From contig CALWMN010000022.1 of the NCBI GenBank assembly GCA_944381935.1, positions 1 through 41,593 on the forward strand: a stretch of DNA of 41,593 bases, read 5' to 3'. Shown one piece after another: positions 38,274-41,513 of the stretch. How positions within the stretch are numbered: the stretch's first letter is position 1; every line of letters begins with the position of its first letter. The notes beneath the pieces are model-generated. The model was not told the origin of the DNA. It did no database searches and was given only the letters and a program-made list of their open reading frames with translations. The translations under genes were made by a program, and so were the position numbers. This stretch comes from an uncultured Mediterraneibacter sp. (lineage in GTDB: Bacteria > Bacillota > Clostridia > Lachnospirales > Lachnospiraceae).

Positions 38274-38316
38274 ATCGGCATGCAGAGGGGGAACACCTCT
38301 GTATGCCGATATTTTT
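38274..38316 (+). terminator. Terminator of gltBD
   Basis: ATCGGCATGCAGAGG (38274-38288) pairs with CCTCTGTATGCCGAT (38296-38310), with one G-T pair, followed by ATTTTT. Confidence 0.92.
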
Positions 38317-38401
38317 GCAACCGTGATGAGCCAAAGCCCGGATTTTCCCGAGGCTTTGCCGACCGCTTATAATGCCGGGATATTCCTTTGGGCATTTCCG
38401 G
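38312..38401. repeat. Dispersed 90-nt structured repeat, copy A
   Basis: This aligns without gaps to 41377-41466 with about 20 differences in 90 positions. It begins in the T tract of the gltBD terminator. Hairpin 1 is CAAAGCC (38332-38338) with GGCTTTG (38352-38358), plus CGG/CCG inside. Hairpin 2 runs from CCGG (38375-38378) to CCGG (38398-38401), with a bulged T at 38381 and loop TTTG. The linker GACCGCTTATAATG is nearly invariant between copies. Confidence 0.75.
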
Positions 38402-38526
38402 TGGCTGCGCGCAGATCCTTTGGGCTACCTCTCAGAATAAAAAACATCTGGCAGGATGCTTTTGCTGCGAAAAAGGAGGAATTGTGACTGTCAGGCTGAA
38501 AATATTACATAAATATTAAAAATATG

Positions 38527-38555
38527 TTGAATTTTCTCCCGAAATTTATTATAAT
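38527..38555 (+). promoter_or_regulatory. Upstream promoter of the NlpC/P60 gene
   Basis: TTGAAT (38527-38532), 17-bp spacer, TATAAT (38550-38555). The spacer holds an imperfect inverted repeat (AATTTTC and GAAATT). Confidence 0.65.
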
Positions 38556-38620
38556 CTATTAAGTATTAAATAATCGACGCTTTGTGTCCCAAAGAAAATC
38601 ATCTTTTTTGTGAATTGCTG

Positions 38621-38649
38621 TTGAAAAAGACAAATTAATGTTGTATGAT
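38621..38649 (+). promoter_or_regulatory. Downstream promoter of the NlpC/P60 gene
   Basis: TTGAAA (38621-38626), 17-bp spacer, TATGAT (38644-38649). Confidence 0.65.
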
Positions 38650-38700
38650 TATCAATATATGGGGGCATAAATAATACATAAGGAGTAGTGGAGAAGAGAG

Positions 38701-39831
38701 ATGAAATGGAAAAAGATAAGTAGTGTATTTCTCGCTACAGCGCTTACATGTTCACTCGCTGTTACACCTGTTTTTGCAGATGAAGTGGATGATTTAAAAC
38801 AACAGAAGCAGGAAACGCAGAGTGAAGTGAACAGTCTTCAGTCACAGCTGAACACTCTGATGTCAAAGATATCCGACCTGGAAGACGAATTGATCACAAC
38901 CGGTGAAGAGATTGCGCAGGCGGAGGAAGATCTCAAGGAAGCAGAAGCCGAGGAAGAAGCACAGTATGAGGCTATGAAACTCCGAATCAAATATATGTAT
39001 GAGGAGGGAAGCGGTACAGCGACACTTGAGAAGGTATTCACCTCGGGAGATATCACCAGCATGCTGACTCAGGCAGAGTACTCCCAGCAGGTACATAATT
39101 ATGACCGTGAGAAGCTGGAGGAATATGCGGCTACGGTCCAGAAAGTAGAAGACCTCAAAGAGACGCTTGAGACAAAGCAGGAAGATCTGAAAAACACGCA
39201 GGCTGAGTACCAGACACAGCAGACGGAGCTGAATGAGACGATCACTGAGAAGAGCGCAGAGATCGAGAATCTGGATGAACAGATTGAGGAAGCCGCGCGC
39301 AAGGCTGCCGAAGAAGAGGCTGCACGGAAAGCCGCTGAGGAAGCTGCAAGGGCTGCCGAGGCTAATAATGAAGCTGGTGGCAGCGAAAATGCCGGCGGTT
39401 CCAGCCAGGATGACAACAGCACTGGCGGAAGCAGCAATAACAGTTCAGGCGGAGGCGGAAGCTCGTCCAGTTCCTCATCAGGCGGAGGGGCAAGTTATAA
39501 TGCCAGCACAGGAAATGCAATTGTAGACGCTGCATGGTCACAGGTTGGCAATGCGATCTATGAGTGGGGAGCACAGAGACCGTATGATGCATTTGACTGT
39601 TCAGGACTTGTCCAGTGGTGTTATGCACAGGCGGGAATATCCATTCCGAGAACAAGCAGTTCGATTCTGAGCAGCGGCACGATCGTAAGTGATCCGCAAC
39701 CCGGAGATATCTGTTGGACACCGGGACATGTTGCCATTTATATTGGCGGCGGGCAGATGATTGAAGCACAGCAGGACGGTGTGCCGATCTGTGTAAGTTC
39801 CGTACGTGTTACATATTATGTGAGATTCTAA
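38701..39831 (+). CDS. Secreted coiled-coil NlpC/P60 peptidoglycan hydrolase
   Basis: A 376-residue secreted protein of the CwlO/PcsB layout. The signal peptide ends at Ala26 (PVFA-DEV). A long coiled coil (about 28-225) begins VDDLKQQKQETQSEVNSLQS and ends in an Ala/Glu-rich stretch. A Gly/Ser/Asn-rich linker (about 226-265) leads to the NlpC/P60 domain: catalytic Cys300 in FDCSGLVQWCY and His343 in PGHVAIYIGGG. Such enzymes cut D-Glu-diamino acid bonds in cell-wall peptides, and the coiled coil usually docks to FtsEX for activation. AAGGAG is well upstream of the ATG, with GGAG closer. Two tandem promoters precede it and a strong terminator follows. Confidence 0.9.
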   Translation: MKWKKISSVFLATALTCSLAVTPVFADEVDDLKQQKQETQSEVNSLQSQLNTLMSKISDLEDELITTGEEIAQAEEDLKEAEAEEEAQYEAMKLRIKYMYEEGSGTATLEKVFTSGDITSMLTQAEYSQQVHNYDREKLEEYAATVQKVEDLKETLETKQEDLKNTQAEYQTQQTELNETITEKSAEIENLDEQIEEAARKAAEEEAARKAAEEAARAAEANNEAGGSENAGGSSQDDNSTGGSSNNSSGGGGSSSSSSSGGGASYNASTGNAIVDAAWSQVGNAIYEWGAQRPYDAFDCSGLVQWCYAQAGISIPRTSSSILSSGTIVSDPQPGDICWTPGHVAIYIGGGQMIEAQQDGVPICVSSVRVTYYVRF

Positions 39832-39857
39832 AGAAAAATGAAGATAAAATACAAAAG

Positions 39858-39888
39858 AAAGACCGCTGCAAACTGCAGCGGTCTTTGC
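39858..39888 (+). terminator. Terminator of the NlpC/P60 gene, probably bidirectional
   Basis: AAAGACCGCTGCA (39858-39870) and TGCAGCGGTCTTT (39874-39886) form a perfect 13-bp stem with a three-base loop. It also lies at the 3' end of the convergent VOC gene. Confidence 0.92.
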
Positions 39889-39907
39889 CGTGTGAGTGGC
39901 ATGCTGG

Positions 39908-40276
39908 CTATTTCGCAGGAACAATTTCAAGCCAGTATCCGTCAGGATCTTCTATAAAATAGATTCCCATGCCCGGATTCTCAAAGCAGACACAACCCAT
40001 TTCTTTGTGTTTGCTAAGGGACGCTTCAAAATCATCTGTGTAAAAGGCAAGATGGATCTCATTATCCCCCAGCTCATAAGGACGGTCCATATCCCTTAGC
40101 CATGTCAGCTCCAGGAGATGGGAAGTAACGCCGTCTCCCAGATAGACCAGCTTAAAGCTTCCGTCAGAGGCATCTTTTGTCCGGGTCACGGTAAGACCAA
40201 GCGCCTCTTCATAAAAGGCAAGTGATTTTTCAAGGTCATATACATTAAGGTTATTGTGTGCGAATGTGAACTTCAT
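39908..40276 (-). CDS. VOC-superfamily protein (glyoxalase I-like)
   Basis: A 122-residue protein with two beta-alpha-beta-beta-beta modules. The first begins KFTFAHNNLNVYDLEKSLAF with YEEALGL; the second contains HLAFYTDDFEASLSKHKEMG and ends FIEDPDGYWLEIVP. A metal site like that of glyoxalase I is plausible: His9, Glu in HLLEL, His in EIHLAF and Glu in YWLEIV. It may detoxify methylglyoxal, but VOC proteins vary too much in function to be sure. The ATG at 40276 gives the usual start MKFTFAH and lies about ten bases after GGAGG; an ATG two codons earlier is closer to it. Confidence 0.88.
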   Translation of the reverse strand: MKFTFAHNNLNVYDLEKSLAFYEEALGLTVTRTKDASDGSFKLVYLGDGVTSHLLELTWLRDMDRPYELGDNEIHLAFYTDDFEASLSKHKEMGCVCFENPGMGIYFIEDPDGYWLEIVPAK

Positions 40277-40404
40277 GAGCATACATCCTCCTGTCTGATA
40301 TTGTTCGGCGTCAGCCTTATATCCAGAATATCATAGAAGTGACGAAAAGAACAGGAAGAATTTGGAATCCTGATTCCTGTTTTGCCAGCATCATCTGAAA
40401 ATGC

Positions 40405-40433
40405 TTGCAAACACGCGTTTTCTGTGATATACT
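40405..40433 (+). promoter_or_regulatory. Promoter of rpsB
   Basis: TTGCAA (40405-40410), 17-bp spacer, TATACT (40428-40433). The leader of about 115 bases (40441-40555) contains CCGG-N6-CCGG and could hold an autoregulatory structure, but I recognise no known class. Confidence 0.7.
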
Positions 40434-40555
40434 ACACACGTTGCAAAAAAACACGTATGCGGATTTTGATGAGGGTGCCTAAGCCGGGTATGTCCGGACG
40501 GTCTCGGAAAAGCGTAAAGCATGCGGAAGAAGAAAACCAAACGGAGGAAAGAAAC

Positions 40556-41320
40556 ATGAGTGTTATTTCAATGAAGCAGTTACTGGAAGCCGGTGTTCAT
40601 TTCGGACATCAGACAAGAAGATGGAACCCTAAGATGGCCCCATATATCTATACGGAGAGAAACGGTATTTATATCATTGACCTTCAGAAGTCTGTGGGAA
40701 TGGTAGACGATGCATATCAGGCCGTTTCTGACATCGCTGCTGAGGGCGGCACAATCCTCTTTGTAGGAACGAAGAAACAGGCTCAGGACGCGATTAAAAC
40801 AGAAGCGGAGCGCTGCGGAATGTTCTATGTAAACGAGAGATGGCTGGGCGGTATGCTTACCAACTTTAAGACGATCCAGAGCCGTGTAAAACGTCTCAAA
40901 GAGATTGAGGCAATGTCAGAGGACGGAACATTTGACGTACTTCCTAAGAAAGAAGTTATCGCACTCAAAAAAGAGTGGGCAAAACTGGAGAAGAATCTCG
41001 GCGGAATCAAAGAGATGAAGAGACTTCCGGATGCGATCTTTGTAGTAGATCCGAAGAAAGAGAGGATCTGTGTCCAGGAAGCACATACGCTTGGAATCCC
41101 GCTGATCGGTATCTGTGATACAAACTGTGATCCGGAAGAGCTGGATTATGTAATCCCGGGAAATGATGATGCAATCAGAGCGGTGAAACTGATCGTCTCC
41201 AAGATGGCTGACGCAGTTATCGAGGCAAATCAGGGCGCGACCGCTGAAGAAGAATATTATGATGAGGAAGCTGCAGACGACGTGGAAGCAGTGGAAGCTG
41301 AAGAGGCTGTAGAGGCGTAA
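40556..41320 (+). CDS. rpsB: 30S ribosomal protein S2
   Basis: A 254-residue ribosomal protein. [20 protein letters not shown] and [20 protein letters not shown] are the N-terminal S2 signature. [25 protein letters not shown] and [24 protein letters not shown] are also diagnostic. The end is an acidic Glu/Ala-rich tail (about residues 235-254), common in Clostridia. GGAGGAAAGAAAC precedes the ATG at 40556; the open frame upstream lies in the leader. tsf follows, the standard rpsB-tsf pair, but with a terminator and repeat copy B in between. Confidence 0.97.
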
Positions 41321-41345
41321 TATCACTTCGGGATATGAAAGGAAA

Positions 41346-41381
41346 TGCTTCAGCCTGATCTGACAGGTTGAGGCATTTTTT
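41346..41381 (+). terminator. Terminator/attenuator between rpsB and tsf
   Basis: TGCTTCAGCCTG (41346-41357) pairs with CAGGTTGAGGCA (41364-41375), 12 pairs with two G-T, followed by TTTTTT. It would make tsf expression depend on readthrough or on a promoter inside the next 130 bases. Confidence 0.88.
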
Positions 41382-41466
41382 GCAACGGCGGCGAGCCAAA
41401 GTCCGCATATGCCCGGGACCTTGGCGACCGCTTACAATCCCGGAATGTGCCTTCTGGCACTTCCGG
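41377..41466. repeat. Dispersed 90-nt structured repeat, copy B
   Basis: Second copy of the element at 38312-38401. Hairpin 1 is CCAAAGTCC (41396-41404) with GGACCTTGG (41416-41424). Hairpin 2 is CCGGAA-T-GTGCC (41440-41451) with GGCAC-TTCCGG (41456-41466) and loop TTCT; the bulged T is conserved. It begins in the T tract of the rpsB terminator and ends 35 bases before the tsf ribosome binding site. Confidence 0.75.
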
Positions 41467-41513
41467 TAATGGAACGAACAGGATAACGAATATTTTAAAT
41501 GGAGGAATTTATC

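Follow-up and report, generated by a model that had tools for sequence, protein, structure and literature searches.

A mobile 90-nt repeat behind intrinsic terminators of Lachnospiraceae, probably moved as folded single-stranded DNA

What are two similar, foldable sequences doing directly behind two terminators of one contig? The question is raised by a 41,593-nt stretch of DNA from an uncultured Mediterraneibacter sp. of the Lachnospiraceae (assembly GCA_944381935.1, contig CALWMN010000022.1; the whole stretch is called the window below). An earlier note, made from the sequence alone, had pointed out a 90-nt intergenic repeat pair and suggested a structured RNA, or a mobile or repetitive extragenic palindrome (REP)-like repeat that targets terminators. 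Our data demonstrate that the pair belongs to a dispersed, covarying, terminator-targeting repeat, and genome comparisons indicate that this repeat is mobile. In our judgment it is probably a non-autonomous transposon, about 90 nt long, whose mobile form is folded single-stranded DNA and which is most likely moved in trans by an insertion sequence (IS) 200-type TnpA of the Y1 (HUH) class.

The repeat family

Positions 38312-38401 and 41377-41466 align without gaps and, by an eye count, differ at 20 of 90 positions. Each copy starts in the T run of a strong hairpin, copy A behind a glutamate synthase gene pair and copy B behind rpsB (genes identified by Pfam), as had been described. The alignment stands, but the element itself has other borders: it starts 3' of the T run and reaches about 5 nt further right, where the consensus ends in TGATT (coordinates in Table 1). 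The linker between the two hairpins, GACCGCTTAYAAT, matches the window exactly only in these two copies; with up to three mismatches it is found 10 times, below the chance mean of 15.7. Both linkers contain TATAAT or TACAAT, resembling a -10 box. The earlier note had recognized no known RNA family, and an Rfam scan of the window gave only tRNA above the gathering cut-off. Five loci with copies gave five Rfam matches, all far under gathering scores, with nothing relevant at E ≤ 10.

A search of the genome and of related Lachnospiraceae with a covariance model, which the earlier note had proposed, turned up many further copies. The first model was built from six full copies in the 3.04 Mb genome of origin, found by BLAST and a linker pattern. 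It gave 18 matches in that genome at E ≤ 1, the six included; the weakest two had E values of 0.04 and 0.07, and eight were full-length at E 8e-16 or better, which excludes a chance origin of the pair. Across a panel of 61 genomes (the genome of origin, 36 others of the Mediterraneibacter group and 24 of other families), this model matched 24, all among the 37 genus genomes, at 0 to 52 copies per genome, and found nothing in the 24 genomes of other families. A second model, built from 82 copies, gave matches at E ≤ 0.001 in 51 of 299 Lachnospiraceae genera, each represented by a single genome; 13 candidates per genome were scored there, and the per-genome counts of that survey are lower bounds.

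A pattern scan of named genomes yielded 67 stretches, many in Mediterraneibacter and others in Ruminococcus torques, R. turbiniformis, Mordavella, Eubacterium sp. ER2 and further taxa. Plasmids gave no match to the repeat, and viral contigs gave 0 matches to the exact core pattern. Ten unannotated faecal phage records, including MT835472.1 (L362), contain the repeat or parts of it. Near-identical copies occur across genera (L266, L268, L273, L272, L277, L142), which suggests horizontal spread. A literature search by title and abstract found no paper describing the repeat, which is not proof that none exists.

Terminator targeting, mobility and fold

We assessed targeting in 1.64 Mb of sequence (parts of genomes G009, G021 and G034 plus the window), in which BLAST gave 52 copies or fragments. 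Leaving aside the two window copies and ten without the T-tract side, 40 could be counted, and 30 of these start within 6 nt of a predicted hairpin and T run, compared with 16 of 4000 random positions. Twenty-six copies lie outside coding frames behind a co-oriented gene; 138 gene-end terminators carry no copy. The same target rule is described for group IIC introns in the portion of PMC8919778 cited here, and the repeat could in principle be a remnant or passenger of such introns. We consider this highly improbable, as there is no Rfam intron match. Moreover, the sole RVT_1 match of G009 is not behind a terminator: its reverse transcriptase frame is fused, as from an intron, into a gene that we take to encode a transporter permease (L166, on G009:C42). 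For that reason, and because the adjoining repeat match is weak (26.7 bits), this reverse transcriptase was also rejected as a partner of the repeat.

Several observations indicate that the repeat is mobile. In a survey of 60 copies from eight genomes, chosen among the better matches, the left heptamer is mostly genome-specific: GTGAYGG in G009, GCGTGGG in G013, GTACAGG in G021, GTATAGG in G034, and GCAACGG or a close variant in the genome of origin. Identical 90-mers occupy two sites (L116, L117). Among 30 rpsB-tsf loci of the genus, sorted by eye, the site is filled in the genome of origin and in G034, and 13 others have the terminator only. The G034 insertion belongs to that genome's own subfamily and lies a few bases further on than copy B, which points to independent insertions into the same terminator. 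The remaining 15 loci have no terminator between the two genes.

Two insertions in G009 (G009:C3 130046 and 132176) were compared with empty relatives. One of these sites reads TTTTTT[element]TGCGGACGG, where the empty relatives read TTTTTTCGTTGCGGACGG; the T tract is there joined directly to the flank, with no duplication. At 132176 the flank is about 9 bases longer than in G023, the sole relative that aligned, and sites 11612 and 136649 had no clean empty counterpart among the relatives. No target-site duplication was seen at rpsB-tsf, 130046 or 132176; the relatives compared are diverged and show differences of a few nt around the junctions, which would allow for short gains or losses. Terminal inverted repeats are absent, in that left ends such as GTACAGG and GCAACGG are not inverted copies of the right end GGTGATT. 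Copies also occur in head-to-tail tandems (L324, L332, L284). In L124, L125 and L128 (G021), L060, L078 and L133, the left stretch (e.g. GTACAGGCG) recurs close to or directly at the right end and looks like the remainder of a second, shortened copy.

The compensatory changes that the earlier note saw in the pair hold in a much larger set. Among 81 distinct copies, 92.4% of cells are paired and 20 of 35 pairs are changed on both sides, against 7.4 in shuffles, with 0 of 500 shuffles as high; 50 cells are doubly changed (11.0 in shuffles), and sliding the partners abolishes the signal. This alignment was fitted to the model and so leans towards structure, and the shuffles ignore relatedness. 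The first six copies gave a weak excess (5 versus 2.7, 23 of 500 shuffles as high). In the larger set, about half of the copies leave two pairs close to the left end open. Entire stems have a new sequence in other genera, with the shape kept; for example, GAGAAAC..GTTTCTC replaces CCGGAA..TTCCGG in hairpin 2. The shared two-hairpin fold that had been proposed is found in copy B and in the consensus, as RNA and as DNA, but copy A alone gives a rearranged fold. In one copy, L341, the loop of hairpin 1 is about 40 bases longer; L341 otherwise resembles L340, and the loop may be a cargo site.

Such covariation, together with fold z-scores of -2.1 to -5.5 (five RNA folds of three copies), would fit a conserved structured RNA, a cis element or small RNA that follows terminators and acts, for example, on read-through transcripts. 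Covariation is no proof of a role as RNA, however, because single-stranded-DNA transposition would require it too, and copy numbers of 0 to 52 per genome, empty orthologous sites, tandems and the lack of an Rfam match argue against this explanation, to which we give a small probability.

Candidate routes of movement

Single-stranded-DNA transposition by an IS200-type enzyme is suggested above all by elements that share the repeat's kind of site. The IS200-type elements of these bacteria encode an IS200/IS605 transposase by NCBIfam (two tested), with PDB relatives that include ISHp608 TnpA. Their left borders were set by comparing copies in G034 (3), G001 (5) and G065 (2), and for five more by homology or by eye; L138, L492 (at a contig edge) and L510 (a single copy, behind a hairpin) were left uncounted. 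Fifteen of 17 copies with a defined left end lie directly behind a hairpin and T's, and in those 15 the hairpin has -12 kcal/mol or better and T's stand at the junction. A hairpin of even -6 kcal/mol or better precedes 61 of 300 random points. The terminator-sited elements fall into several groups (L139, L156, L165, L140, L157, L522-L524, L490, L501, L493-L495, L159, L142). Elements of G085 and G178 have a second frame after the first, which we take to resemble tnpB, and do not start at terminators.

The junctions are similar as well. TTGT is found at 9 of 15 IS200-type left ends (in G001, TTT followed by AATAGGGG), and the right ends consist of a hairpin with TGACT, TGATT, CGACT or TTATT, in most cases a hairpin and terminal TGAYT (L142 is ambiguous). 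Among the 82 genus copies of the repeat, 78 start with GC or GT, 79 are preceded by TT and 53 end in TGATT. In one locus (L156) an IS200 copy sits between a T tract and a repeat fragment; in another (L142) one lies directly behind a repeat.

The ends of the repeat can also pair with its interior. The four bases at its right end are complementary to four at the 5' foot of hairpin 2, and in most of these pairings one base is bulged out. This pairing is AATC/GATT in 44 of 82 genus copies (0 of 82 with shuffled letters), whereas in the family-wide set of 69 copies it is AATC/GATT in 20, AACT/AGTT in 15 and AACG/CGTT in 3 (shuffled, 1 of 69); matches of another type or register (15 genus, 2 family) were excluded from this support. 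The end and the foot thus change in step between genera. For the left end the partner is the linker, which lies 3' of hairpin 1; across the family the CAA and AAT parts of the linker are able to pair with the left T tract and the right end. Both hairpins are subterminal and imperfect, with unpaired bases. In IS608, according to the parts of PMC5934647 and PMC8266576 used here, each cleavage site pairs with a guide located 5' of a hairpin, the target is retained on the left side, and contacts are made to an unpaired T.

In the mechanism that we propose, TnpA would cut after TT at both ends, at the T tract on the left and at TGATT on the right, with the linker acting as guide for both cleavage sites. 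The element would be released as a single strand and joined behind another terminator hairpin and its T's. The terminator hairpin may help to expose single-stranded T's, and the element's own hairpin 2 with GATT would mimic the target site, a resemblance that would explain the head-to-tail tandems. Landing at terminators could serve as a safe haven in which no gene is broken and termination is kept.

A number of observations weigh against this proposal. Ten of the 40 counted copies start more than 6 nt from any predicted terminator T run. Twenty-three of 82 genus copies and 29 of 69 family copies showed no end/foot pairing, and the foot of hairpin 2 has no significant covariation within the genus. 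The left guide of the repeat would lie 3' of hairpin 1, on the other side from the guides of IS608, which stand 5' of their hairpins. The hairpins of the IS200-type elements differ in sequence from hairpins 1 and 2, so that only junction motifs are shared, and one IS200-type group (L395, L144) ends in TGACT yet starts with AATGAAA and has no T run (L144 also lacks the hairpin); the TGAYT ending is thus not tied to terminators. Orientation hints at best weakly at a preference for an exposed lagging-strand template: 35 of 40 copies are oriented with the leading strand, compared with 97 of 138 control terminators (p=0.039), but so are 82% of genes (991 of 1210). The strand signals disagree. The structure as a whole pairs better on the opposite strand (91.9% versus 82.9% of cells), in 67 of 82 genus copies that strand also gives the more stable hairpin 1, and in 58 of 80 copies the terminator strand gives the more stable hairpin 2. 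Choosing a strand from G-U wobble was rejected for this reason, as the hairpins contradict each other.

The enzyme raises further difficulties. No autonomous or parent IS with these hairpins was found among the Y1 and reverse transcriptase loci searched with the models (60 loci, then 50). The genome of origin has no recognized IS200-type gene, only one weak Y1 match in a 274-aa frame. Y1 genes are not linked to copy number: G001 has nine and no copies of the repeat, and none was found in G009 (52 copies), G035, G226, G246 or G292. Draft assemblies often lose IS copies, and the absence of parent or Y1 genes is therefore weak evidence. One candidate parent, L503, was rejected; its Y1 gene lies at the end of a contig, and the decayed, repeat-like sequence about 340 nt before it scores 13 bits (E 0.92).

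An alternative that involves reverse transcription is a bacterial counterpart of the eukaryotic short interspersed elements (SINEs). Here a structured, gene-less 90-nt RNA of the strand opposite to the terminator would end in oligo-A, the complement of the T tract; it would anneal to the T's of a nicked terminator and be copied in by target-primed reverse transcription with a borrowed enzyme. Conserved wobble pairs favor the opposite strand in hairpin 1, and no target-site duplication was seen. Truncated fragments are a better fit to reverse transcription than to a transposase: by eye, about 10 are truncated on the right and keep the T-tract side, several stopping in the linker just before hairpin 2, against about 3 truncated on the left, with several others internally deleted or ambiguous. 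This bias is not significant, however, and no transcript is known. Heptamer-only remnants behind terminators are not in clear excess over other genomes' heptamers. A reverse transcriptase (PF00078) was not found in G013, which has 36 copies, nor in G000, G002, G010, G016, G022 or G027, and across 23 genus genomes neither reverse transcriptase nor Y1 families track copy number. The IS200-like right end and the shared sites would also have to be coincidence. We regard this route as unlikely, although it is the strongest of the alternatives.

A REP-like origin, with movement by the single-copy, domesticated REP-associated tyrosine transposase (RAYT, TnpA-REP), appears rather less likely still. 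It would accord with the imperfect hairpins, with their mismatches and bulges, with the intergenic position and with single-strand chemistry, and many of these genomes have a single frame of about 260-286 aa with a weak Y1 match. The left end, however, lacks a conserved GTAG and varies between genomes. RAYT-like frames are also present in G030, G032 and G033, which have no copies, and were not found in G009, and no model match to the repeat lies in the examined loci around RAYT-like genes. Of the earlier suggestion of a mobile or REP-like repeat that targets terminators, the mobile and terminator-targeting part is thus upheld by dispersal, empty sites and the targeting count, whereas a classical REP is not, given the missing GTAG and the unlike hairpins.

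We therefore retain transposition of single-stranded DNA by an IS200-type TnpA as the probable route. The copies in the genome of origin are probably old, immobile relics, because no IS200-type transposase gene was found in its assembly. If this reading is correct, intrinsic terminators are a safe haven for single-stranded-DNA transposons in gut Lachnospiraceae, with a gene-less passenger present in 51 of 299 sampled genera. The rewriting of the end-to-foot pairing between genera would then be a natural experiment on target choice in IS200/IS605. The genome-specific subfamilies make mobility testable in strain collections. Such repeats may also account for apparently conserved "RNA structures" that lie behind genes and might be taken for regulators.

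Table 1. Coordinates of the two repeat copies, their parts and their presumed target terminators in the window
Feature	Position	Strand	Remarks
Intrinsic terminator of glutamate synthase genes, presumed target of copy A	38274..38316	+	hairpin ~38274-38310, T run 38312-38316; sequence, Pfam
Repeat copy A	38317..38406	+	left end GCAACCG; right end TGGCT (consensus TGATT)
Hairpin 1 of copy A	38330..38360	+	
Linker of copy A	38361..38373	+	GACCGCTTATAAT
Hairpin 2 of copy A	38375..38401	+	bulged T
Intrinsic terminator of rpsB, presumed target of copy B	41343..41381	+	T run 41376-41381; sequence, Pfam, locus comparison
Repeat copy B	41382..41471	+	left end GCAACGG; right end TAATG (consensus TGATT)
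Hairpin 1 of copy B	41395..41425	+	
Linker of copy B	41426..41438	+	GACCGCTTACAAT
Hairpin 2 of copy B	41440..41466	+	bulged T

Comparison with known systems

Short, non-autonomous intergenic repeats with stable folds are familiar from the small miniature inverted-repeat transposable elements NEMIS, ERIC, CIR and RU (PMC2229807). Unlike our repeat, those described in the part of that source drawn on here carry terminal inverted repeats or a TA at one end, and its text does not mention terminators. Like group IIC introns, as described in the cited portion of PMC8919778, the repeat inserts directly behind intrinsic terminators; unlike them, it is 90 nt long and has neither a ribozyme nor a reverse transcriptase gene. 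With REPs and their RAYTs it shares a short, intergenic form, hairpins with conserved irregularities and the lack of a gene of its own. It differs from them in lacking GTAG, in having two unlike hairpins in a fixed order, and in having no linked RAYT in the loci examined.

The closest comparison is with IS200/IS605 (the IS200 group, IS608 and ISDra2) and with the palindrome-associated transposable elements (PATEs). PATEs are short elements that have the ends only and are often moved in trans, in a family that makes no duplications, as far as the part of PMC7290912 cited here describes them. We do not claim that the repeat is a PATE, because the search for a parent IS with its hairpins found none and its own genome showed no IS200-type gene. 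It further departs from these systems in that the whole terminator is the target, one linker apparently serves both ends, and tandems occur. Like them, it has no inverted ends, no target-site duplication that we could see, and subterminal imperfect hairpins with an unpaired T; it inserts 3' of a target that is kept at the left, and in part of the copies its right end pairs with the foot of a hairpin. With the local IS200-type elements, finally, it shares the same kind of site and a similar right end.

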